Positions 4,539 through 34,255 of a DNA stretch of 34,255 nt are shown here, piece by piece; positions within the stretch are counted from its first letter, which is position 1; each line of letters begins with the position of its first letter. The stretch comes from a virus: the IMG/VR virus record IMGVR_UViG_3300042261_000361, positions 1-34,255 of that record, one strand, 5' to 3'. A model generated the notes under the pieces. That model was given only the letters and a program-made list of their open reading frames with translations. It searched no databases and was not told the DNA's origin. Made by a program: the position numbers and the translations under genes.

Positions 4539-4555
4539 GCCTCCGCCTCGGAGGT
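4539..4555 (+). promoter_or_regulatory. Hairpin covering the chaperone ribosome binding site
   Basis: CCTCC at 4540-4544 can pair with GGAGG at 4550-4554 around a five-base loop, with a flanking G-U pair at 4539/4555. GGAGG is the only Shine-Dalgarno sequence for the ATG at 4560. In the RNA the hairpin would hide the ribosome binding site and could lower chaperone synthesis relative to the abundant tube protein. The pairing is seen in the sequence; the regulatory effect is inferred. Confidence 0.5.
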
Positions 4556-4559
4556 GTGC

Positions 4560-5165
4560 ATGGGATTTGAGCGCGCGACGAGATCCAGCGAGACCCGACG
4601 GCTACCACTACTCTGCGACCCTGCGCTGCGTGACAGGATCGCACGGTACATCCTGAGAGTCGGACCGGAGAGATTGGCCCAGGAGGCTGAGGCCGACAGG
4701 GTTCGGTCCATGTTTCGGCTGTTCGGCGAGACGCTGGACGCGGACGTGCTGCGACAGCAGCTCGGCGACGATGCCCTCGACGGCGTGACGCACATCACGA
4801 TCCGAGGTCTGAGCGGAGAGCAGTTCGCCGCCGCGTCGGATGCTGCGGCTCTGGCGCATGACCGGAATCCGGCGGTGCCACTGCGCACCCTGGTCGAGGC
4901 CGAGTACATCCGAGCCGGCCTGGTGAGCATCGACTCATTCGACGAGACGCGGGGACCGACCGGGTATCCAGTCGAGGTGCTTTATGCGGCTGGTGGCATC
5001 GGTCGGGAATGGCCACAGGTGCGGGCCGAGGTAGCAGCGCGCATCGACACCTGGAGCCACCTGGGAAAACCGGCCGGCTCGTCATCCGCGCCCTCGTCAG
5101 GCGAGCCCATGCCGAGCGACGCGGGGCGCACGTACCTATCTGCGACGGCTCCTGCCGAGGAGTAG
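4560..5165 (+). CDS. Tail assembly chaperone, short form (gpG-like)
   Basis: A 201-residue zero-frame product starting at ATG 4560 with GGAGG at 4550-4554. It is mostly helical and rich in Asp, Glu and Arg ('RYILRVGPERLAQEAEADR', 'EEFAAASD'-like helices), with a Ser/Pro-rich end. Between a tail tube gene and a tape measure gene, siphophages almost always encode a chaperone pair made by programmed frameshifting. Here the last third overlaps a -1 frame that is opened by a slippery heptamer at 5063-5069. The protein likely binds the tape measure and recruits tube subunits. Sequence similarity to lambda gpG itself was not evident. Confidence 0.75.
   Translation: MGFERATRSSETRRLPLLCDPALRDRIARYILRVGPERLAQEAEADRVRSMFRLFGETLDADVLRQQLGDDALDGVTHITIRGLSGEQFAAASDAAALAHDRNPAVPLRTLVEAEYIRAGLVSIDSFDETRGPTGYPVEVLYAAGGIGREWPQVRAEVAARIDTWSHLGKPAGSSSAPSSGEPMPSDAGRTYLSATAPAEE
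5063..5107 (+). promoter_or_regulatory. Programmed -1 ribosomal frameshift signal
   Basis: GGGAAAA at 5063-5069 is in the exact phase required (G GGA AAA in the zero frame), so tandem slippage gives GGG AAA. Six bases later a perfect six-base stem begins: GGCTCG at 5076-5081 pairs with CGAGCC at 5102-5107. Heptamer, phase, spacer and downstream stem together match the classic arrangement of siphophage tail chaperone genes such as lambda G/T, which uses GGGAAAG. Confidence 0.85.
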
Positions 5166-5458
5166 TCAGCGCCCACCCGGCAGACTGGATCACACCAGTG
5201 GACGTAGACCCGGACTCCCAGGCCGGTGAGTGGGTCGATGGCCTATCGTGCTGGCCAGGTGGCGAGCGTGCCCCGTGGTGCCTCGACTGGATGGCCAGGT
5301 CTGCAGCGATCCGTCATATCCTCAGGGCCCGCGACTGGTCCGACGCTGGACAGCCGATCGGCTACATGGGCGACCTACCCCCTGTAGTCGTGGACGGCGT
5401 GCTGACAGTCGGCAAGGAGTGGGATACCATCACGGCCGAGGAGTCACGCCGCCGATGA
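5069..5458 (+). CDS. Tail assembly chaperone frameshift extension (T part of G-T fusion)
   Basis: The -1 frame is read after slippage at 5063-5069 and runs to TGA at 5456-5458, adding 129 residues to the first 170 of the short form for a fusion of about 299 residues. The extension begins 'TGRLVIRALVRRAHAERRG' and contains scattered Cys and Trp ('CDGSC', 'GLSCWPGGERAPWCLDWM'). In lambda the T domain binds tail tube subunits while G binds the tape measure; the same division of labour is inferred here. An ATG at 5009 in this frame has no good ribosome binding site, so independent translation is less likely. The stop overlaps the tape measure ATG as ATGA. Confidence 0.78.
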   Translation, partial: TGRLVIRALVRRAHAERRGAHVPICDGSCRGVVSAHPADWITPVDVDPDSQAGEWVDGLSCWPGGERAPWCLDWMARSAAIRHILRARDWSDAGQPIGYMGDLPPVVVDGVLTVGKEWDTITAEESRRR

Positions 5459-14359: not shown

Positions 14360-16843
14360 ATGAGCGTATACCCAGGATTTTCGCCTCTCCGTGGCGGTGT
14401 CGGTCCTGCTGGTCCTGCTGGGCCTGCCGGGCCTGCCGGGCCTCAGGGCGTCCAGGGTGACCAGGGCGTCCAGGGTATCCAGGGCGTCCAGGGTATCCAG
14501 GGCGTACAGGGTGACCAGGGCGTACAGGGTGACCAGGGCGTCCAGGGTATCCAGGGCGTACAGGGTGACCAGGGGCCACAGGGCACGCCAGGTGCCGACG
14601 GCGACCAGTACGCGACGACGAGCGCTACTGAGCTGACGATCGGAAATGGGACGCAGTCGCTGACCGTAGAGACGAACCTCGACTACACGGTCGCCCAGCC
14701 GATCATCATCGCCTACGACACAGCCCACCACATGCACGGCACTCTGACGAGCTACAGCGCCATCACGGGCGCCATGGTTGTCGAGGTCGAGCATCACACC
14801 GGTGCAGGTACATACTCGGTCTGGAGCGTCAATCTCGAGGGCGTAGCTGGCGTCCAGGGGCCTGCTGGTCCTCAGGGCGAGCAGGGCATCCAGGGCATCC
14901 AGGGTGACCAGGGTATCCAGGGCGAGCAGGGCATCCAGGGCATCCAGGGTGACCAGGGCATCCAGGGCATCCAGGGCATCCAGGGCGTGCAAGGTGACCA
15001 GGGTCCGCAGGGTCCGCAGGGCGACCCAGGCGACCCGGGCGCCACAACCGTGACTGGGCTGACCGACCGATATGAGGAGCTCGCCTGGCAGACGTTCACC
15101 GAGCCGGCGCACGGTGGCCTGCTGGCGGCGTCGCCGATTCGGGACATCCAGACCGCCATTGACGCCACGCCGGTAGGACCTGCGTGTCAGGTCGTGTGCG
15201 GCCCGGGCAGCTACGCCGGCGCCACTGTCACCATCCCGGCCGGGCGAAATAACATCGCGATCATCGGCCCCACGGCGGGGGACTTCGGCGGTACGGTCGT
15301 CTCTCTGTCCTCGGGACGCGGACTGACCATCGGAAACAATGCCGTCCGAGTGCGCGTGTGCAACATCCAGGTCGAGGGGCTGACGACCATCTCGACGACC
15401 GGGGCCGGGGTCCATCGTGTCGAGCGCTGCCAGCTCGTCGGTGGGCTGTCGGTGGGCGCCATCTCGGCGACCATCTACGTCGTCGGCTGCGAGGTCGGAG
15501 CGGTCACGATTGCGGCGGGCTTTACCGGATTGATCTTGTTTGACCGCTGCCAGTTCACGTCGACCTTCACAAATAGCACGCTCCCGACGCGCGTGCTCAT
15601 GTCGGATTGCGCGGGACTCGTGGCGGCTCCATCGACGACCGCGATCCTCAGCGGTCGCTTCCAGCTCGCATCGGGCCTCACGACCTACTACGCCAATGGG
15701 ACAGCGCTCCTCGGGGCGCCGCTGACGGCGGTCAACGGCCTGACGCCAGCGGCCGACCGCATCGCCTACTACACGAGCGCCAGCGCGGCGGCCATGACCG
15801 CGCTGAGTGCCTTCGGCCGGACGCTCATCGATGACGCTGATGCGGCAGCCGCCCGCACGACCCTGGGCCTGGGTACTGCCTCGACCGCCAACACAGGCAC
15901 TAGCCCGGGTAACGTCGTCGTCCTGGACGGGTCGTCTCGGCTGCCTGCTGTCGATGGGTCGCAGCTGACCGGGCTTCTCTCGACGCAGGTCTCGGGCATT
16001 ACGTCCGTCGACGTTCAGACGTTCACGTCGGATGGCGTATGGTCAAAGCCGTCCGGCGCGACGGTCGTGCAGGTCGTGCTGGTTGGCGGCGGCGGCGGCG
16101 GCGGCAGCGGCTATAAAGGCGACCAGTCGGCAGCAAACCTGTACAGCGGCGCGGGCGGTGGCGGTGGCGGTGTGACCGTGCTTACTCTCCGCGCGTCTGA
16201 GTTGAGTGCTACGGTCGCGGTAACTGTCGGTCAGGGCGGCGCTGGCGGGGCATCACGCACCGTCAACGCTGGGGCGGGAAATGCCGGAAGCGCCGGCACG
16301 GCTTCGTCTTTCGGGGTCTACGCGAGAGCCGCGGGCGGTGCGGGCGGTGCAGGCGGCATTGTCGGCGCGGCGGGCGGTGCAGGCGGCCTCGGCAACTTCG
16401 CGACGGGCGGGGATGGTGCTGGCGCGACATCAACCGCAACCGCTGGCGCAAGCGACGCAGTGGACTCCTTCAGTGGCCCGGGCGGCGGCGCTGCCGGTGG
16501 CGGCATTGGACAGAACGCATCCGGCCTGGAGCGGGCTGGCGGAGCGGGTGCCGATACCGGTTTTGACCGCACCTCGTCGGGCGTTGCTGGTGGAACTGCC
16601 GGCCCGACGAGCGGGTCTCCTGACGGTGGTGCCGGCACCGGGCAAAGCGCAGGAAATGCGTATCCTGGCGCGGGAGGTGGCGGCGGAGCAGGCAAAATCA
16701 CCGGAACGACCGCGGGCGCGGGCGGTGACGGTGGCATCTACGGCGGCGGCGGTGGCGGCGGTGGCGCTGGCAAAAATAGCGTCACCCACTCAGGCCCGGG
16801 CGGAAACGGCGCAAACGGCATCGTGCGCGTGGTGTCGTGGTGA
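14360..16843 (+). CDS. Tail fibre with collagen-like, beta-helix and glycine-rich domains
   Basis: An 827-residue protein starting at ATG 14360 (GAGG upstream). Domains in order: a first collagen-like block of 23 Gly-X-Y triplets (residues 15-83), a beta section (84-163), a second block of 22 triplets (164-229), a pectin-lyase-like right-handed beta-helix candidate (about 250-440) with repeated strands, a fibre segment with 'AARTTLGLGTA' and 'LDGSSRLPAVDGSQLTGL' typical of phage fibres, and from about residue 553 a glycine-rich end opening with 'TFTSDGVWSKP'. That last motif and the polyglycine runs resemble receptor-binding tips with stacked polyglycine helices (phage S16 gp38 type). It is the likely receptor-binding protein. 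Codon and Gly use in the tip differ visibly from the rest, suggesting exchange. Confidence 0.82.
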   Translation: MSVYPGFSPLRGGVGPAGPAGPAGPAGPQGVQGDQGVQGIQGVQGIQGVQGDQGVQGDQGVQGIQGVQGDQGPQGTPGADGDQYATTSATELTIGNGTQSLTVETNLDYTVAQPIIIAYDTAHHMHGTLTSYSAITGAMVVEVEHHTGAGTYSVWSVNLEGVAGVQGPAGPQGEQGIQGIQGDQGIQGEQGIQGIQGDQGIQGIQGIQGVQGDQGPQGPQGDPGDPGATTVTGLTDRYEELAWQTFTEPAHGGLLAASPIRDIQTAIDATPVGPACQVVCGPGSYAGATVTIPAGRNNIAIIGPTAGDFGGTVVSLSSGRGLTIGNNAVRVRVCNIQVEGLTTISTTGAGVHRVERCQLVGGLSVGAISATIYVVGCEVGAVTIAAGFTGLILFDRCQFTSTFTNSTLPTRVLMSDCAGLVAAPSTTAILSGRFQLASGLTTYYANGTALLGAPLTAVNGLTPAADRIAYYTSASAAAMTALSAFGRTLIDDADAAAARTTLGLGTASTANTGTSPGNVVVLDGSSRLPAVDGSQLTGLLSTQVSGITSVDVQTFTSDGVWSKPSGATVVQVVLVGGGGGGGSGYKGDQSAANLYSGAGGGGGGVTVLTLRASELSATVAVTVGQGGAGGASRTVNAGAGNAGSAGTASSFGVYARAAGGAGGAGGIVGAAGGAGGLGNFATGGDGAGATSTATAGASDAVDSFSGPGGGAAGGGIGQNASGLERAGGAGADTGFDRTSSGVAGGTAGPTSGSPDGGAGTGQSAGNAYPGAGGGGGAGKITGTTAGAGGDGGIYGGGGGGGGAGKNSVTHSGPGGNGANGIVRVVSW
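14402..14608 (+). repeat. Collagen-like Gly-X-Y repeat block 1
   Basis: 23 uninterrupted Gly-X-Y codon triplets, mostly G-V-Q, G-I-Q and G-D-Q, built on a 9-bp DNA unit of the form CAGGGYRTM and its variants. The near-identical DNA units make this block prone to expansion and contraction. It would form a trimeric collagen-like stalk in the fibre. Confidence 0.9.
14849..15046 (+). repeat. Collagen-like Gly-X-Y repeat block 2
   Basis: 22 uninterrupted Gly-X-Y triplets (G-I-Q, G-D-Q, G-E-Q, G-P-Q) using the same 9-bp DNA unit as block 1. The two blocks are separated by an 80-residue non-repeat beta region. Recombination between the blocks could remove that region. Confidence 0.9.
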
Positions 16844-17070
16844 CCGAACCCGCCGACACTCACCGCCCCGTGCGCATCCTGTCGCGCGAACGCATGTCCC
16901 GCACGGTCCTCGTGGGTCTCGCTGGCATCGCTGGCCTGACCCTGCTCGGCATCGTCGCGCTCGTCGTCGGGAGTGCAGACGGGGCGACCCTGGGCGCCAT
17001 CGTGGCCGGCATCTCTGGCTGTGTCGGCGCCGTCTCCGGTCGGTCCGCCTCGACCAGTGCGTCACCATGA
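16840..17070 (+). CDS. Holin-like small membrane protein
   Basis: A 76-residue protein starting at GTG 16840, which overlaps the previous stop as GTGA. A hydrophilic N-terminus of about 20 residues is followed by two hydrophobic segments (about 22-43 and 49-66) separated by a short Asp-containing turn ('GSADGA'), then a short Ser-rich tail. Two membrane helices in under 100 residues, close to an endolysin gene, fits class II holins. It could instead be an anti-holin or an unrelated membrane protein. Confidence 0.55.
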   Translation: MTEPADTHRPVRILSRERMSRTVLVGLAGIAGLTLLGIVALVVGSADGATLGAIVAGISGCVGAVSGRSASTSASP

Positions 17071-17249
17071 GCCCGCTCGACCTGGCCAGGTCACTCTGGC
17101 TCATCGTCACCGCCGCTGACTCAGAGCACGAGGCTCACCGTCAGCGAGCTGCAGCCGCCGAGCGACGCCTCAATCGTGCGCTGCAAGCTGTCGAGCGCGC
17201 CAGGGAGCGCCTCTCCACCTACGAACAGAGGCGAGGACTCAGCCGATGA
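17067..17249 (+). CDS. Small coiled-coil protein in the lysis region
   Basis: A 60-residue protein starting at ATG 17067 (ATGA overlap). After a short hydrophobic start ('LARSLWLIVTAA') the remainder is a charged Ala/Glu/Arg helix likely to form a coiled coil. A short hydrophobic segment followed by a coil is the general shape of i-spanins (Rz), but at 60 residues it is short and the hydrophobic part is marginal. It overlaps the next gene as ATGA, so it is co-translated with the membrane proteins on both sides. Confidence 0.45.
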   Translation: MSPLDLARSLWLIVTAADSEHEAHRQRAAAAERRLNRALQAVERARERLSTYEQRRGLSR

Positions 17250-24988: not shown

Positions 24989-25116
24989 GGATTACCACGA
25001 ACCTGCGGCCGGACGCGGTGCGCGCCCTGGTGGGCGACCGCGTATGGTCGCGACTTGCTGCTGCGGTGCAGCTCCGTGAAATCACCGGCGTTGACCGGCG
25101 AGGAGAGACGAAATGA
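24985..25116 (+). CDS. Small protein of 43 residues, unknown
   Basis: A short frame from ATG 24985 (ATGA overlap with the helicase stop) to TGA 25114-25116, which in turn overlaps the next start as ATGA. The sequence is basic and helical ('RPDAVRALVGDRVWSRLAAAV'-like pattern without Cys). Being coupled at both ends makes translation very likely; function unknown. Confidence 0.6.
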   Translation: MRITTNLRPDAVRALVGDRVWSRLAAAVQLREITGVDRRGETK

Positions 25117-25319
25117 CGATGGCAGAAGCGAAACCGGGCGACGTGCTCGTCGACCGCGACGGGGCGTTGTGGCTGGTCGGCAAGAGGCGTGCGCGCGTCA
25201 TGAACGACCCGACCGAGGGCGCAGACGGAGATGCGCCGTTCGAGTCGTCTCCGGTGCTGCTCGCAAAGGCGGAGCAGTTCGGCCCCTTCGCCCGCATGGT
25301 GCCGGAGCCGACGCCATGA
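25113..25319 (+). CDS. Small SH3-like protein, unknown
   Basis: A 68-residue protein starting at ATG 25113 (a second ATG is two codons on). 'KPGDVLVDRDGALWLVGKRR' suggests a small beta-barrel, as seen in short phage proteins with a 'GDVxxDxDGxxW' element. The remainder is loop and Pro-rich. It is coupled by ATGA to both neighbours. Function unknown. Confidence 0.55.
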   Translation: MTMAEAKPGDVLVDRDGALWLVGKRRARVMNDPTEGADGDAPFESSPVLLAKAEQFGPFARMVPEPTP

Positions 25320-26323
25320 GGAAGAGCCGGCTTTCGGTGACGTGCAACGCCGACGCTCGTCGCGCGCTTGTGGAGCACGCGGTATCGCACGGATTCGGCG
25401 TGTCCGCCGCCGTGAAGCTCGCGGTGGAGTGGCATCAGCGGACGCTCGGCGACCCGATGCCGGTCGACAAGCGCAACGCGCCTCCTGGCCGTGGTGGAGT
25501 TTCCGACGCCAGGGTTCTTGTCGCGTGGCCGGATGAATGGCGATGCCGAGCTGCAACGGATGACGACGTGCGCGCCATGAGCAACGCTGCGGTCGAGGCG
25601 TGGCACGCTGCCGGATGCCCAGAACTGAAGCGAGTCCCGCGCGTGCGAACGAGGAAGCGGTCGAAGCGGGACGACGAAAAGCGGGCGCGCCGGCTGGAGT
25701 TCGCATCGCGGCCCAAGCGGGGCGAGATCAAAATTAGCCTGTACAAAAACGCCCCACTTCTTGCGGGCATCGCGCAGGCACGCGGCGTCAACATCAGCGT
25801 CTGCATCCGTGAAGCGATGCAATGGGCGTATCGGCGCTACGCGGGCGCCGAGCTCGGCGAGAAGTGGTTGTATAGGTTCAGAACGTCGTTTGTGAGCAAC
25901 GACCGGCCGGACTTGTCGAACCGCGCCGTATGCTTCCCCGGCGAGTGGATTGACGCGCTTGAGCAAGAGGCGGGCGGCGAATTGGCGCAGTGGATTCGGG
26001 CCGCCGTGTTCGATTGGCTCGACGCGCAGGGCACGCCCGCACTGCGGCCTCCCGACCGAAACGCCGTGCCCGTGAAGGCGCCGGCCCCGAAGCCGGAAGC
26101 GAAGTCGGTGGCAACCCCGGTGGCGACCCCGGTGGCGACCCCGGTGGCGACCCCGGTGGCGACCCCGGTGGCGACCCCGGTGAAGTCTCGCGAGGTCCGT
26201 CCCTGCGCGCGAACGGCGCAGCTCGCGAAAGAGGCCGAGACCAAAAGCCGATGGCCTGGAGGTCGTAGCCTCATCCGAGGGAACATCACCGGCTGGCAGT
26301 ACGTCAGTGCTGTGCAGCCATGA
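25316..26323 (+). CDS. DNA-binding-like protein with repeated ribbon-helix-helix elements
   Basis: A 335-residue protein starting at ATG 25316. Three strand-helix-helix segments look like ribbon-helix-helix (RHH) folds: residues 1-45 ('KSRLSVTCNADARRALVEHA', then a second helix), about 137-175 ('IKISLYKNAPLLAGIAQARG', then 'SVCIREAMQWAYRRY'), and about 195-235 ('AVCFPGEWIDALEQEAG', then 'LAQWIRAAVFDWL'). Between them are basic Arg/Lys stretches. A six-fold VATP repeat (residues 265-288) and a basic end follow. RHH proteins usually dimerise through the strand; three in one chain is unusual. AAA-rich codons here differ from neighbours, suggesting acquisition. Confidence 0.5.
   Translation: MRKSRLSVTCNADARRALVEHAVSHGFGVSAAVKLAVEWHQRTLGDPMPVDKRNAPPGRGGVSDARVLVAWPDEWRCRAATDDDVRAMSNAAVEAWHAAGCPELKRVPRVRTRKRSKRDDEKRARRLEFASRPKRGEIKISLYKNAPLLAGIAQARGVNISVCIREAMQWAYRRYAGAELGEKWLYRFRTSFVSNDRPDLSNRAVCFPGEWIDALEQEAGGELAQWIRAAVFDWLDAQGTPALRPPDRNAVPVKAPAPKPEAKSVATPVATPVATPVATPVATPVATPVKSREVRPCARTAQLAKEAETKSRWPGGRSLIRGNITGWQYVSAVQP
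26108..26179 (+). repeat. Six copies of a 12-bp tandem repeat (VATP)
   Basis: GTGGCGACCCCG is repeated six times in frame, the first copy with one A for G change, encoding Val-Ala-Thr-Pro. Such perfect units arise by slippage and would vary in copy number. They encode an extended Pro-containing linker near the C-terminus of the RHH-like protein. Confidence 0.93.
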
Positions 26324-27714: not shown

Positions 27715-28066
27715 CGACCTCCGGTCGATGGCGGAGAGGGCATCTCAGTATGAGCCGGCGCCGCAGCCTGGTGCATCCAGCGTCACCGATCAGCTGCTGT
27801 GCTACGTCGATTGCCTGCGGGTGCCAGAAGAGCAGCGGACACAGCTGTGGCGAATGCTGCAGGCTCGACGAGAGATGGGCCGGGCGAAGTACGGATGCGA
27901 GCTGCAGACGTACAACGGCCGCAACGCATGGACCGACTGTCTGCAGGAGCTGCTCGACGCAGCCGTCTACATCACGCAGGCGAGGATGGAGGGTCGCCCA
28001 GTCCCGGGCGAGATTCGGTCAGTGCTGCACCTGGTGTCGAATCTCATCATGGACTTTCCTCGGTGA
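27701..28066 (+). CDS. Conserved-looking phage protein, unknown (MazG-like pattern)
   Basis: A 121-residue helical protein starting at ATG 27701, overlapping the small terminase by 14 bases. The stretch 'REMGRAKYGCELQTYNGRNA' then 'DCLQELLDAAVYITQARM' looks like the 'KYG..L...NGRD...D..QE.LD...YL' pattern common in phage packaging-region and MazG-like proteins. The acidic residues needed for a pyrophosphatase site are incomplete, so enzymatic activity is doubtful. Its stop overlaps the large terminase GTG. Confidence 0.5.
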   Translation: MADSDDLRSMAERASQYEPAPQPGASSVTDQLLCYVDCLRVPEEQRTQLWRMLQARREMGRAKYGCELQTYNGRNAWTDCLQELLDAAVYITQARMEGRPVPGEIRSVLHLVSNLIMDFPR

Positions 28067-29472
28067 GCCTGAGCCTCGCAGAGCTGGAACCGCTCCCATG
28101 GCAGGCCGATGCGCTGCGGGCCATCCTGCGACCAGCGGGCGGGTACTACGCCTGGGCAGGCGGTAAAGGCTCGGGCAAGTCGGTGCTCGTCGGCGCGGCA
28201 GCGTGCATGCTCGCGGCGACCAGGCCCGGTGCCGAGGTCGCACTCGTCATGGACTCATACCCGAGCCTGCGAGACATCCATCTGCCCATCATCTCGGCGC
28301 TGGCCAGGAGCGCAGGAGGCGAGTGGAGAGCTACCGACACGGAATTCCGCTGGCCGTCAGGCTCGGTCATCCGGCTCAGGCACCTCGACACGACCGGCGA
28401 TCCGAGGATCGGCGGCAGCCCGATCGAGGGCATGAACCTGCATGCCATCATCGCGGACGAGTGCCAGCAGATCGACGCCAGGTACTGGTCCGTCTGGGCT
28501 GAGCGTACTCGCGTGGCCGCCGTCGACGTGGCAGGACATACGTGCTCCCCCCTCGTCGTCGCCTCAGGTCTGCCCATTGGGACCTGGTGGTGTACCGAGG
28601 CCGCGAAGGCGGGCGGTCACGTATGGAGACCGCGGACCCGCGACAACACGAACAATGACCCGGGTTACGAGGCCCGCGTCAGGGCCACCATGACCGAGCG
28701 TCACGCACGGGCCATGCTCGACGGCGAGGAGTACCTGCCCGAGGGCGCCATCGTCGAGGAGTACCGCGCCGAGCTTGAACCGGGCGGCGTGCTCGTCGAT
28801 TGGTCGCCCGATTGGGCGACGACTCGAACCGTGCTCGCGATGGACCTCGGCGCCCGCGATCCCCACGCGCTGTTGCTTGCCGAGGATGCGACGCGCGGCC
28901 GGTGGGTCGTCATGCGCGAGTGGTACAGCACCGGCCGGCACATCACGATTGCAGAGTTCTGCGCGCGCATCTCGAAAGACGCCGCGCCCCGTCGCATGGC
29001 CGCAGGCCGCATCCCCATCGACGAGGTAGTCGCAGATCCAGCAGGAGCGGCAACGTCTGCCCAGACTGGACACTCTGACCTCGACCTGATCTCGCTGCAT
29101 CCTCCCGAGGGCATCGGTCTGCGACCCATCGTCGAGACCATCCCAGAGCGCCGGTCCATTGTCGGGTCATTGAACCGGATGCGTCTCGCCATTGAACGAC
29201 GGCGGCTGATGTTCGCCCGCTCGCTGGCGGAGTCTGGCATGGCCGACCAGTCGGAGCGATCGCTGCACCGGTCGCTGCTCGGGTATCGATGGGACCCACG
29301 AGGTCGAGAGGAGCCGCTGAAGGATGGAGTGCATGATCACGCCGTCGACGCGCTGAGGTATGGAGCCAGGCGGGTGCTGTGGCACCTGTCGGACCTGACC
29401 GGAGCTGACATCATCACCCCAACTCGGACGCTACGCAGGACAGCATCGCGCCACGAGCAGGATGCACGATGA
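28063..29472 (+). CDS. terL: Terminase large subunit
   Basis: A 469-residue protein starting at GTG 28063 (GTGA). Walker A is 'GGKGSGKS' (residues 33-40), Walker B 'IIADE' (129-133) with Glu133 catalytic. The RNase H-like nuclease has 'AMDLGARDPHA' (Asp about 262), 'VADPAG' and 'GVHDHAVDALRYG' as the three acidic positions. This is the motor and nuclease for DNA packaging. Terminal redundancy of the assembly would suit headful packaging, but the mechanism cannot be read from the sequence. Confidence 0.93.
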   Translation: MSLSLAELEPLPWQADALRAILRPAGGYYAWAGGKGSGKSVLVGAAACMLAATRPGAEVALVMDSYPSLRDIHLPIISALARSAGGEWRATDTEFRWPSGSVIRLRHLDTTGDPRIGGSPIEGMNLHAIIADECQQIDARYWSVWAERTRVAAVDVAGHTCSPLVVASGLPIGTWWCTEAAKAGGHVWRPRTRDNTNNDPGYEARVRATMTERHARAMLDGEEYLPEGAIVEEYRAELEPGGVLVDWSPDWATTRTVLAMDLGARDPHALLLAEDATRGRWVVMREWYSTGRHITIAEFCARISKDAAPRRMAAGRIPIDEVVADPAGAATSAQTGHSDLDLISLHPPEGIGLRPIVETIPERRSIVGSLNRMRLAIERRRLMFARSLAESGMADQSERSLHRSLLGYRWDPRGREEPLKDGVHDHAVDALRYGARRVLWHLSDLTGADIITPTRTLRRTASRHEQDAR

Positions 29473-29533
29473 TGCTGCCAGTAGACGGATGCTCGTACTT
29501 GTAGCATCGGCGCCGGACGGGTAACGTGCGGGC
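29473..29533 (+). other. Gap with hairpin before the portal gene
   Basis: This 61-bp gap is one of the few places where the head genes are not overlapping. GATGCT (29488-29493) and AGCATC (29503-29508) form a six-base stem with a nine-base loop. There is no T-run to make a terminator. It may be an RNA processing or packaging signal, or chance. Confidence 0.3.
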
Positions 29534-30907
29534 ATGATCGGAGTCGTCAGCAGCGCAGAGTCCGCCCGCCTGAGAGACGCACAGGAGCGTCCCACCTCAG
29601 AGGTCGGCGTCGGCGGTGGTCGCTCGAGTGGCGGCATCTACGGCAGCGCCTACGAGCACAACCGACGGCTACAGGCTAATGCAGAGCGCATCGCGTCGTT
29701 CCGCCAGTGCATGACCCACTGGAGCGTGCAGGCCGGTGTGACTGCCTGGCGCGGTCTCTGTGAGATCGCTACATGGTCGATCGAGCCCGCCGACGACTCG
29801 CCGCAGGCGCTGCAGTACGCCGACCACATCAGGGCCTGTCTCGGCATCGGCACAGTCAGCCCCATCGGGACCGAATGGCAGGTCGTGCTGCGGCAGCTCC
29901 TCCAGGCGCACCTAGAGGGGTTCCAGGTCTGGGAGATGGTCCCGGTCCAGGTGGGTGGCGTGTGGTACACGCCGCTGATGCCGCGTGATGCTGCGTCCGT
30001 GGCCCGGTGGATCGTCGACGAGGACGGGCGCCTGGCTGCCATCGAACAGCGACCGCCCATCGGATACGGGACGTTCCGAGTCATCCCGGCATCCCAGCTG
30101 CTCGTCTACGTCTGCGGCGCAGTCGCACATGACGACTACTCGGGCGAGGGCATGCTGCGCTCGATAGAGCCGCTCTATCGCGACGTCGTCACCCTGCAAC
30201 AGCAGCTCGTCGCCGGCATCCGTCGCTGGGCCACCCCAACCCCTGTCGCCCGCATCATTCCCGAGATCAGCCGCCAGTACGGCAACCCAGAGACCCCGGC
30301 ATTTGTCGCGTCCGAGCTGGCTCGTTACGAGGAGACCCTGCAGCTCTACATCGCACACGATCAGAGCTATCTCATGGTTGCGCCCTGGATCGAGCTCGAC
30401 ACGTTCGGCGGCGAGCTGGCGCACATGGGCGACGTGCAGGCCATCATCGACGCCAGAGACCGCCAGATCCTGAGCATCTCGTCGGCTCAGTGGATGATGC
30501 TAGGGACGACCAACAGCTCCGGGTCCTACTCACTGTCAGAGACGCAGATGGCCGCCGCTCACGATGCGGCCCAGGCCGTGGATGACGACATCTGTCGAGG
30601 GATGCAGAGCTACATCGGTCGAGCCGTGCGATGGCAGTTCGGGCCCGATGTACCTGATGCGCTGCTACCGCGTATGAGAGCCGCTGGCCTGGCCAGTGAG
30701 GCATTCGTGCGTTACCTGTCGGTGCTGCCCAGCCTGGTGGCGGCCGATCTGCTGCGGCCTGATGATGCAGTCCGAGACGCCATCCGAGCTGCTGTCGAGG
30801 TGCCCGCCGAGGACCGCAACGCGCGTCCCAGAGGAGCTCGGGTCCGACCGTCAGCGACTCCGGCAGCTGGAGTCCTGCCGCCTGCTGCAGTCGTGGGGCA
30901 GGGCTGA
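29534..30907 (+). CDS. Portal protein (DUF935 / Mu gp29-like)
   Basis: A 457-residue protein starting at ATG 29534. Portal signatures include 'LEGFQVWEMV', 'PLMPRDAASVARW', 'YDDYSGEGMLRSIEPLYRDV'-like core (about 195-215), a long helix with 'DVQAIIDARDRQILSISSAQ', and 'SYSLSETQMAAAHDAAQAV' as in Mu-like portals. The C-terminus is Pro/Arg-rich. It forms the ring through which DNA is packaged and to which the tail attaches. Its place directly after terL and before the protease confirms it. The stop shares a base with the next start (TGATG). Confidence 0.88.
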   Translation: MIGVVSSAESARLRDAQERPTSEVGVGGGRSSGGIYGSAYEHNRRLQANAERIASFRQCMTHWSVQAGVTAWRGLCEIATWSIEPADDSPQALQYADHIRACLGIGTVSPIGTEWQVVLRQLLQAHLEGFQVWEMVPVQVGGVWYTPLMPRDAASVARWIVDEDGRLAAIEQRPPIGYGTFRVIPASQLLVYVCGAVAHDDYSGEGMLRSIEPLYRDVVTLQQQLVAGIRRWATPTPVARIIPEISRQYGNPETPAFVASELARYEETLQLYIAHDQSYLMVAPWIELDTFGGELAHMGDVQAIIDARDRQILSISSAQWMMLGTTNSSGSYSLSETQMAAAHDAAQAVDDDICRGMQSYIGRAVRWQFGPDVPDALLPRMRAAGLASEAFVRYLSVLPSLVAADLLRPDDAVRDAIRAAVEVPAEDRNARPRGARVRPSATPAAGVLPPAAVVGQG

Positions 30908-32511
30908 TGCCGATCCGTCGGTCACCTCCTCGTGACGTGCGGTCGGCGGTCCGTCGCGGCCTGCGTCTCTACGATGAAGGCAAGGGCGGTGACGGCCTGA
31001 AGCCAGAGACCATCCGCCGGGCCCGCAGCATCGCCGCTGGCGATGAGCAGAGCATCCAGTGGCTCACGGTCGAGGCGCCGGCATGGTTCGCTCGGCACAA
31101 CGCCACACGCCCAGAGGGCGACGTATCCGGTACGCCCTGGGAGGTCGCATGGTTGCTCTGGGGCGGCGACGCTGGCAGAGCCTGGGCACAGAGAGAGCAG
31201 GACAGACGGGCCCGCATGGAGGCCGCAGGAGAGACCATCATGGCCATGACCATTCCCACGTCCGATGGGCAGACCCTCGGCGAATTCCTCGAGGAGCTGC
31301 GCGCAGCAGCTGAGGGGCGACTGCTCGGCATGGCCGGCGAGTCGCCTCTCATCCTGTACATCGAGGACGACAGCGTGACCGAGACCGACGTCATCGTCGA
31401 GGTATGCGGCCTACCCGATGGCGATAAGTACTATCGCCTCGGCTACTCGCGTGACGCGAGTGGGCGCCTGGTCGTGTCCGAGCCCGTCGAGGTTACCGAG
31501 GTGACGACCTATCAGCCCGTCTCGGCGACGCTGGCACGAGGTCTGGTGCTGGAATCGCTGCGAGTTCACGCGCCTCCTGCCGTCGGTCTGACTCGTGGCC
31601 GCCGCGTGCAGCTGCTCCGGGTCGGCCCTCTGTACGATGCGTACACCGGCTCGGCGCTGCTCGACATCACGGACGACCTGTGCTCGGCCATCGCCTCGAG
31701 CGCAGCGGCGCTCGGGTACGGTATCCCCATCGACATGGGGCACAGCCTGTATCACGCAGCCGCCGACGAGGCCCCCATGCTCTACGGGCGGATCGTCGAG
31801 CTGGAGGCGGTCCCCGGGGCTGGCCTCTACGGAGTCCCCGAGTGGACTGACGCGGGCCGGGCCCTGCTGGCCAGTCAGCCAGGCCTGTACTACCTGAGCC
31901 CGACGATGCTCGGCACTCCCCGCGACCCTCGCACCGGTGCCGAGATGCCTGGCCGCATCCTGCACAGCGTCAGCCTGACGGCGACGCCCCGACAGGACTC
32001 CCTTGAATCACTGGCGCTGTCACGCGCCGCAGCCGGGGCCACGGCCCCCAGAGGAGATGCCATCATGGCACAGCCGCAGACCCCCGCCGGGGGTGACGTG
32101 CTGACGCTGACCCGGGAGCGTGACACGCTGCTCGGCCAGGTCGACACCCTGACGCGAGAGCGAGACGCCATCGCACTGGAGCGGGACACGTACCGCGCCC
32201 AGGTCGAGCACGGCGAGCAGCTCACGCACACCCTGTCCACACGGGTCGAGGCCCTCGAGGCCGAGGCCGCTGCCGTGAAGGCCCGAGCCGAGGTCGACGC
32301 CGCCGAGCTGGCCGGCAAGGTCATCAGCCCCGACGCTCGCACGGCCCTGCTCTCGATGGCGCCTGAGCACCGTGCGATGGTCCTGTCGCACATCCCGGTG
32401 ACCCGCCCCGTGCGAGTCATGGGCCATGCCGCCAGCATCGAGCACGATCCCAAGGCGGCCGAGGCCGCCAAGGTCAATGACCAGCTCTCCGCACTGCGAA
32501 AGGTGAAGTGA
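30907..32511 (+). CDS. Capsid maturation protease with scaffold (Mu I-like)
   Basis: A 534-residue protein starting at ATG 30907. An N-terminal module (residues 1-100) has 'KGGDGLKPETIRRARSIAAG' and 'VAWLLWGGDAGRAWA', a unit often fused to phage capsid proteins. The protease part has 'IDMGHSLYH' (His about residue 278), 'GLYGVPEWTDAGRALL', 'YYLSPTM' and 'ILHSVSLTATPRQDSLESL', as in Mu protein I. The end (about 387-534) is a coiled-coil scaffold. It cleaves scaffold and itself during head maturation. An internal start at 32065 probably makes the scaffold alone. Confidence 0.85.
   Translation: MPIRRSPPRDVRSAVRRGLRLYDEGKGGDGLKPETIRRARSIAAGDEQSIQWLTVEAPAWFARHNATRPEGDVSGTPWEVAWLLWGGDAGRAWAQREQDRRARMEAAGETIMAMTIPTSDGQTLGEFLEELRAAAEGRLLGMAGESPLILYIEDDSVTETDVIVEVCGLPDGDKYYRLGYSRDASGRLVVSEPVEVTEVTTYQPVSATLARGLVLESLRVHAPPAVGLTRGRRVQLLRVGPLYDAYTGSALLDITDDLCSAIASSAAALGYGIPIDMGHSLYHAAADEAPMLYGRIVELEAVPGAGLYGVPEWTDAGRALLASQPGLYYLSPTMLGTPRDPRTGAEMPGRILHSVSLTATPRQDSLESLALSRAAAGATAPRGDAIMAQPQTPAGGDVLTLTRERDTLLGQVDTLTRERDAIALERDTYRAQVEHGEQLTHTLSTRVEALEAEAAAVKARAEVDAAELAGKVISPDARTALLSMAPEHRAMVLSHIPVTRPVRVMGHAASIEHDPKAAEAAKVNDQLSALRKVK
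32065..32511 (+). CDS. Scaffolding protein from internal start
   Basis: In frame with the protease gene, ATG 32065 is preceded by AGGAG (32052-32056) at eight bases, a stronger site than that of the parent gene. It would yield a 148-residue protein: a charged coiled coil ('LTRERDTLLGQVDTLTRERD' and following) and a short C-terminal helical end. Mu protein Z and lambda Nu3 are made in the same way inside their protease genes. Expression is inferred from the ribosome binding site and domain boundary. Confidence 0.7.
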   Translation: MAQPQTPAGGDVLTLTRERDTLLGQVDTLTRERDAIALERDTYRAQVEHGEQLTHTLSTRVEALEAEAAAVKARAEVDAAELAGKVISPDARTALLSMAPEHRAMVLSHIPVTRPVRVMGHAASIEHDPKAAEAAKVNDQLSALRKVK

Positions 32512-32512
32512 T

Positions 32513-32917
32513 ATGAGCAGCATCAAGGGCAACAACCCGAGCTTCCTGGCCTCCGGTTCTGTGACTGCTGGCCTCTCGGTCAAGATCACCGGCATCTCCG
32601 GCGGCCTGACCCAGGTGGCGCAGTCGGATGACGGCACGACCGCCACGGGCGACGCCAACATCGGCACGGCGCTCGAGAGCGTCTCCGCTGGCGAGCTGGT
32701 GGCCGTGCAGGTCGACGGCGTCGTCGACTTCGCGATCGCCGGTGGCATCATCCCCCCGGGGTCGCGGGTGACCTGCAATGCCTCCGGCCAGTACGTGGCG
32801 GCGGCGTCCGGCGACCGGTCGGTCGGCTATCTTCTCGGTGGCAAGAGCTCGACGGGCGCCACGGCGGCCGGGGCTCAGTGCACCATCCTCCTCGACGGCC
32901 CTCTGGACATCGCGTAA
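32513..32917 (+). CDS. Head decoration protein (DUF2190-like)
   Basis: A 134-residue beta-rich protein starting at ATG 32513, one base after the protease stop, with AAAGGTG upstream. 'AGELVAVQVDGVVDFAIAG', 'PGSRVTCNASGQYV' and 'SVGYLLGGKSSTGATAAG' match the DUF2190 style of small capsid decoration or fibre-base proteins ('V..G..V.v..dG....a'). It lies directly before the major capsid gene, where such proteins stabilise the shell. Confidence 0.72.
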   Translation: MSSIKGNNPSFLASGSVTAGLSVKITGISGGLTQVAQSDDGTTATGDANIGTALESVSAGELVAVQVDGVVDFAIAGGIIPPGSRVTCNASGQYVAAASGDRSVGYLLGGKSSTGATAAGAQCTILLDGPLDIA

Positions 32918-32926
32918 GGAGATCCC

Positions 32927-33967
32927 ATGCCCTCCCTCAATAGCGTCAACGTCGTCTCCCCGCTGCTGTCCGGTGCTGCCATCGGCGCCGCTCAGCAGCT
33001 CTCCCTCGTGGCGTCGGGCCTCCCGCAGGCCCGCGTCCCGGCTCAGAGCTACCACGGCCAGGTGTTCGTCGAGGCCTCGGGGTCCTACATGGGGTCCCCG
33101 CAGAACCTGAAGACGAGTCTCTCGGCCGACTACCCGCTGACCCAGGCGGGTGACCCGACGGTCGTCAGCTTCTCCTGTGAGGAGTACAAGCTCGCGAGTG
33201 CCATCGTCCCTGACAAGCTCCTGGAGCGCTCCCAGTTCCCGGCCGACCTCCTGTCTCGTGAGGCTGCGGCCATCGGCCGGAAGCTGGCTCTCGACATGGA
33301 GAGCCGTGTTGCCAGCCTGTTTTTTGACGCCGGGAACTGGCCTGACTCGACGCTGGCCGCCCTCGGTGGCGGCGGCATCCAGTGGAACAACTACACCACG
33401 GCAAAGCCGGACCTGGACATCGACGTGGCGATGGTCCTCGCTCGGGAGAGCGCCTATGGCCGCAACCCCGACACCATCATCCTGGGTCAGCAGGTCATCG
33501 ACGCCTATCGTCGGTGTCTCCAGGCTCAGGGCGTCGCGGTGGTCGGAAGTGGTGCGGCTCGCGCCGACCTCCTGACCGAGGCTGACGCGATCTCGCGCAT
33601 CGAGAGCCTGTTCGGCATCAAAGTCCTGATCGGCTCGGCCCGCGCCAACACGGCCGCTCCGGGGTTGGCTGTCTCTGGCAGCTACATCTGGGGCAAGTCG
33701 TTCTGGGTCGGCTGTCTGCAGGACACCGACGCCGCCGTCGCCGGCTCTGACGTGATGGTCCGTCCGGTCGCCGGGCTCCTGATCGTCGAGGACCGAGTCG
33801 GCGCGGTCGGCATCAGCATGGATGGTCTCACCCTGCCGATCGCCGTCAGCGAGCACATCTCCGAGCCCCCCAAGGCCAAGGGCAAGCTCGTGGCGGGTGA
33901 GTGCTACACGGACGAGATCGTCTGTGACACCAATCTCGGCTATCTCGTGACCTCCGTGGCTGCCTGA
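32927..33967 (+). CDS. Major capsid protein (HK97-fold, Mu T/GpE-like)
   Basis: A 346-residue protein starting at ATG 32927 with AAGGAG upstream, the best ribosome binding site in the structural module. 'SFSCEEYKLASAIVPDKLLE' and later 'ALDMESRVASLFFD' form the spine region, and 'YIWGKSFWVGCLQD' (about residues 254-267) is a characteristic strand of this capsid group ('VWGK'). It is the main shell subunit. Five Cys residues, high for a capsid protein, could reflect disulphide or metal stabilisation but this is speculation. The stop shares a base with the next ATG. Confidence 0.85.
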   Translation: MPSLNSVNVVSPLLSGAAIGAAQQLSLVASGLPQARVPAQSYHGQVFVEASGSYMGSPQNLKTSLSADYPLTQAGDPTVVSFSCEEYKLASAIVPDKLLERSQFPADLLSREAAAIGRKLALDMESRVASLFFDAGNWPDSTLAALGGGGIQWNNYTTAKPDLDIDVAMVLARESAYGRNPDTIILGQQVIDAYRRCLQAQGVAVVGSGAARADLLTEADAISRIESLFGIKVLIGSARANTAAPGLAVSGSYIWGKSFWVGCLQDTDAAVAGSDVMVRPVAGLLIVEDRVGAVGISMDGLTLPIAVSEHISEPPKAKGKLVAGECYTDEIVCDTNLGYLVTSVAA

Positions 33968-34255
33968 TGCTCTACCGCTACCAGCCACTCAACCCCAGGG
34001 AGGTCATCCCCGTCCTGGGCATCTTCGGCCCTGGGGTCTACGACCTCAGCGTCGAGGACGCAACGCGCTTCGGCGCGCTGGTCGCTGGCATCGGTGGCGG
34101 TCCATCTCTCGTGCCTGAGTACGTCGTCCCTGACCCCGTCTCTCAGGCCGTGGCCGACTTCATGGCGGCCGTATGTCTCCCGACCGACGCCAACCCCGAG
34201 ACGACACCCCAGGTCGTGTCGAGCCGCCCCAAGCGGAGCCGCTCGCGCTCGGAGG
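33967..34255 (+). CDS. Small head-tail region protein, 5' part (continues at 1-185)
   Basis: The reading frame starting at ATG 33967 runs off the window end and continues at base 181, giving a 97-residue protein: 'YQPLNPREVIPVLGIFGPGVYD' at the start, an alpha/beta core, then a Pro/Ser/Arg-rich basic tail. The start uses TGATG coupling to the capsid gene. Head-completion or adaptor roles are typical here, though the sequence matched no family. In Mu a small protein (gp35) sits at the same point, but similarity could not be shown. Confidence 0.8.
   Translation, partial: MLYRYQPLNPREVIPVLGIFGPGVYDLSVEDATRFGALVAGIGGGPSLVPEYVVPDPVSQAVADFMAAVCLPTDANPETTPQVVSSRPKRSRSRSE
34076..34255. repeat. Terminal direct repeat, right copy
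   Basis: Second copy of the 180-bp end repeat. The reading frame that starts at 33967 runs off this end and continues without interruption at base 181 of the window, ending at 185. That continuity supports joining the ends into a circle. The single mismatch with the left copy may be a population polymorphism or a sequencing error. Confidence 0.93.

Follow-up and report, generated by a model that had tools for sequence, protein, structure and literature searches.

The virus record IMGVR_UViG_3300042261_000361 very probably carries a programmed -1 ribosomal frameshift of the lambda G/T type at a GGGAAAA heptamer in its putative tail chaperone gene, as judged from the sequence. The record was analysed over its full length (the window, an IMG/VR virus record of 34,255 bases with 66.8% G+C). 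A first-pass annotation had proposed a -1 frameshift joining two chaperone frames into a complete G/T device, and this proposal is supported by the conservation of the parts among relatives, by the switch of coding frame at the heptamer and by the adjacency of the tape-measure gene. The features of the region are listed in Table 1.

Table 1. Features of the tail chaperone region of the window.
Feature	Position	Strand	Remark
Shine-Dalgarno-like GGAGGTG	4550..4556	+	ahead of chaperone gene; from sequence
G-like ORF, 201 aa, 0 frame	4560..5165	+	kept in four relatives, 89-49% identity
TGGAG, Shine-Dalgarno-like	5052..5056	+	6 nt 5' of heptamer; invariant across the five members
Slippery heptamer G GGA AAA	5063..5069	+	in phase, in all five members
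T-like extension, -1 frame	5069..5458	+	129 codons plus stop
Six-base spacer	5070..5075	+	from sequence
Dual-coded overlap	5070..5165	+	from slip site to 0-frame stop
Downstream hairpin	5076..5107	+	stem 5076-5083/5100-5107; altered pairing in L003 group
Possible second stem, H-type pseudoknot	5086..5125	+	hairpin loop with 5113-5125; candidate
Shine-Dalgarno-like GAGGAG for tape-measure gene	5438..5443	+	within T frame
Tape-measure gene, 617 aa	5455..7308	+	Tape_meas_lam_C at residues 428-494

Two overlapping frames lie directly 5' of the tape-measure gene, the arrangement by which a lambda G/T-type frameshift is recognised. The 617-residue ORF matches the Pfam profile Tape_meas_lam_C with 24.8 bits, for a cut-off of 23. 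The -1 frame ends at a TGA (5456-5458) that belongs to an ATGA (5455-5458) overlapping the tape-measure start. When the sequence and frames were rechecked, the -1 frame was indeed open for 129 codons after the slip and coupled to the tape measure through ATGA, as had been annotated. In the L003 group of relatives (L003 5840-5900), the -1 frame overruns the tape-measure ATG and does not end at ATGA, so that the coupling overlap differs.

According to the proposed mechanism, most ribosomes would read 4560-5165 and produce the 201-residue G-like chaperone. A smaller share, holding tRNA-Gly on GGA and tRNA-Lys on AAA, would slip back by one base at G GGA AAA, presumably aided by the downstream structure, and stay in the -1 frame as far as 5458. 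The predicted fusion combines residues 1-170 of the G-like ORF with the T-like extension, yielding a GT-like protein of 299 residues. By analogy with lambda, its G part may bind the tape-measure protein and its T part may recruit tail-tube subunits.

The position and phase of the heptamer match a programmed -1 frameshift site within the overlap. The 0 frame reads ..CTG GGA AAA CCG, which is the X XXY YYZ phase, and the -1 frame reads GGG AAA ACC; the coordinates, the phase and the six-base spacer given in the first-pass annotation were all right. GGGAAAA is the sole canonical X XXY YYZ site of the 201-codon ORF and occurs once in the whole 34-kb window, both strands considered. Across 16 genes checked in the window, it was also the only in-phase GGGAAAR. 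When the codons of the ORF were shuffled, an in-phase GGGAAAR or AAAAAAR fell inside the overlap in 0.25% of the trials, and canonical in-phase heptamers of any kind occurred at 0.021 per trial. Both codons of the slip site are minor ones in the window, AAA accounting for 12 of 68 Lys codons and GGA for 93 of 768 Gly codons.

Four relatives from IMG/VR were compared, L002 and the trio L003, L008 and L009, making five members with the window but only three well-separated lineages. The G part is 89% identical to that of the window in L002 and about 49% identical in the trio. All five members keep the heptamer in phase with both frames open, and in each a stem begins 6 nt beyond it. In each of the four relatives, GGGAAAA is the only canonical heptamer and is in phase, and the fusion would be 298 residues long, compared to 299 in the window. 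Loss of the heptamer or of its phase in relatives had been set beforehand as the observation that would speak against the frameshift; neither was lost in the four IMG/VR relatives, where both frames are open. Retention of the heptamer is not fully independent evidence, since dual coding (Leu-Gly-Lys in one frame, Gly-Lys-Thr in the other) largely forces its bases.

Searches outside this group found no DNA relatives among cultured phages, and no sequence relation to any of 50,697 phage records. Protein queries against cultured phages with the chaperones, the tape measure, a tail-tube candidate, the major head protein and another ORF gave no significant match, and a plasmid search gave no match. 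Two candidates were rejected. L010, a Hyphomicrobiales MAG matching the T part with an E-value of 5e-5, is a false match: the ORF hit resembles a short-chain dehydrogenase and lacks the two-frame arrangement. A match in KimJongPhill (E-value 0.02, 42% of the query) lies under an annotated tape-measure gene and not a chaperone gene, and is presumably due to chance. When the head and portal proteins served as queries, two further short contigs were retrieved, L011 and L012, which by coordinate reckoning both end before the chaperone gene.

Downstream of the spacer, the perfect six-base stem that had been annotated (5076-5081/5102-5107, GGCTCG/CGAGCC) is present and extends to eight pairs, including one G-U. 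Perfect 6-bp stems at comparable spacing are carried by 5.8% of the window positions, and the 32-nt hairpin outscores 97-99% of shuffles, which in GC-rich DNA is modest support. In the trio, several bases of the hairpin differ and it re-pairs around a bulge, with a more favourable energy than in the window (-16.9 vs -13.5 kcal/mol). It is possible that the hairpin loop also pairs with 5113-5125 to form a pseudoknot. This candidate second stem contains one compensatory pair (C-G to G-C), and 2.5% of shuffles in the window, against 10-18% in the relatives, pair the loop with the downstream segment equally well. A more elaborate reading, in which the slip would be driven by such an H-type pseudoknot, with 5076-5083/5100-5107 as stem 1 and about 5086-5096/5113-5125 as stem 2, nearly all of it within the 100-nt dual-coded stretch of an unrecognised chaperone family, with a T part carrying three invariant, possibly metal-binding cysteines, is rather improbable as a whole. 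The fold that RNAalifold prefers for the slip region buries the heptamer; it was set aside, as it would be melted by a ribosome during elongation. An Rfam search gave no match. Upstream of the heptamer, the conserved TGGAG is a speculative candidate for a stimulator of the slip, by analogy with dnaX, where an internal Shine-Dalgarno sequence stimulates frameshifting.

Judged from the substitution patterns, the coding signal moves from frame 0 to the -1 frame at the heptamer. Over the 26 codons 5' of the heptamer, the window and L002 share 24 identical residues in frame 0 and 13 in the -1 frame, whereas past the 0-frame stop they share 83 of 96 in the -1 frame and 49 of 96 in frame 0, with silent changes in 36 of 74 scorable -1 codons. 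Beyond that stop, the -1 frame is devoid of stop codons in all five members, while the other two frames contain one to four each. Silent changes between the window and L002 affect 54 of 145 codons in the G-only part, 3 of 32 in the overlap and 36 of 75 in the T-only part, with Fisher P values of 0.0016 and 0.00013 for the dip in the overlap. Translation of the overlap in both frames would be expected to produce such a dip. The comparison with L003 goes in the same direction with a smaller drop (36/73, 9/25 and 26/56, respectively). Within the L003/L008/L009 group, the changes in the overlap are all at third positions and all silent in the -1 frame, and several of them alter the 0-frame tail (SSGEPMPSD/SSGEPMLSD, AMLSAAAS/ATLSVAAS). 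On these substitutions, the overlap is under tighter constraint in the T frame than in frame 0, at any rate in this group.

The -1 ORF could instead be a separate gene that is translated without a slip from a start codon of its own within the G-like gene, but the likelihood of this is very small. An in-frame ATG is found 12 nt 5' of the heptamer in L002 and the L003 group (MEPPGK or MEPLGK), and the window has an in-frame -1 ATG at 5009. However, CTG stands in place of the former in the window, and the latter is not shared by the other members, so that no start codon close to the heptamer is common to all five. In L002, a stop of the -1 frame occurs 18 nt before the heptamer, and no clear Shine-Dalgarno sequence is seen ahead of the ATG at -12. 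Just 5' of the heptamer, the L003 group has TTG in place of CTG, a change that is silent in frame 0 and replaces Pro with Leu in the -1 frame. From the heptamer to +135, the -1 frame has no start codon in any of the five members, although it is under selection there. On these sequence comparisons, the second ORF is unlikely to be initiated independently, and slippage from frame 0 is the one entry route open to all five members.

Reinitiation downstream after termination at the 0-frame stop, for example at an ATG 228 nt past the heptamer that is common to all five members, is a very remote prospect: selection at the protein level acts on the -1 frame from the heptamer on, well ahead of that ATG, which the 0-frame stop precedes by about 125 nt. 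That the break arose through faulty assembly or decay of a single gene is hardly credible and is contradicted by the relatives, since the window shares it with four contigs from four other metagenome data sets, diverged ones included; selection on both frames also counts against it. Transcriptional slippage on the four-A run of the heptamer has next to no likelihood, as polymerase slippage usually requires about eight or more A, for which four is short, and it would have no need of a tandem-slip heptamer in exact phase.

Ribosomal frameshifting at GGGAAAA would join two proteins that match no profile. Neither the G-like nor the T-like protein has a match in Pfam, PHROGs or NCBIfam, known chaperone profiles included, and the AlphaFold models of both have mean pLDDT values of 40 and 46, too low for fold comparison. 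Their putative chaperone role is drawn from gene order, position and architecture. The T part (-1 frame, 5063-5455) has three cysteines invariant in the five members (C27, C31 and C73 of the alignment) and a conserved GGERAPWCLD segment. Metal binding by these cysteines is possible.

Some other features of the window were recorded. Its ends (1-180 and 34076-34255) form a terminal direct repeat with 179 of 180 bases identical, which makes it probable that the record represents an entire genome, some 34,075 bp long. An ORF at 33967 spans the terminal junction. The head genes (27799-33967) encode a terminase large subunit, a Mu-like portal (PF06074), a Mu-like protease (PF10123) and a major head protein (phrog_1005), so that Mu-like head genes are joined with a lambda-type tape measure. 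An 827-residue tail protein (14360-16843) contains collagen-like repeats, in 9-base units, and a Gly_rich_2 domain. Tandem 12-base repeats (CCGGTGGCGACC) occupy 26093-26176 within the ORF 25055-26323, and an imperfect 32-nt palindrome with arms 81% complementary is found at 17061-17110.

The proposed frameshift is an ordinary instance that leaves knowledge of frameshifting itself unchanged. It would extend the frameshift device of long-tailed phage tail assembly to a group of uncultivated phages whose head genes are Mu-like, and would give an assignable role to two otherwise unidentifiable proteins. The primary source on the tail-chaperone frameshift arrangement is reportedly the work of Xu, Hendrix and Duda in 2004. 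The heptamer of lambda gpG/gpGT is GGGAAAG. The window resembles lambda in the -1 slip, in a GGGAAAR heptamer located late in the gene directly 5' of the tape-measure gene, and in a downstream frame without its own start. Unlike in lambda, the window slip occurs 100 nt before the 0-frame stop and every member has a stem beyond the heptamer; the first-pass annotation was also correct in describing the proteins as unlike those of lambda, with which no protein similarity is detectable. The head genes are Mu-like (Portal_Mu, Mu-like_Pro), but the tail-chaperone frameshift of phage Mu is a -2 shift, in contrast to the -1 shift of the window. The tail-chaperone frameshift arrangement is conserved across long-tailed phages despite low sequence similarity (PMC5009743). 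A GGGAAAA tail-chaperone frameshift has been reported for phage Bush (PMC11749239), and the same heptamer is cited for TM4 (PMC4626039); the window shares with these actinobacteriophages the identical heptamer, the -1 direction and the location in the tail-chaperone gene. The 100 nt from slip to stop in the window is longer than the mean of 26 nt in the annotated SEA-PHAGES set (PRFect, PMC10885494), which is a modest difference. Compared to these systems, the mechanism and the heptamer are already documented, and only the protein family and the rather long 100-nt overlap are new.
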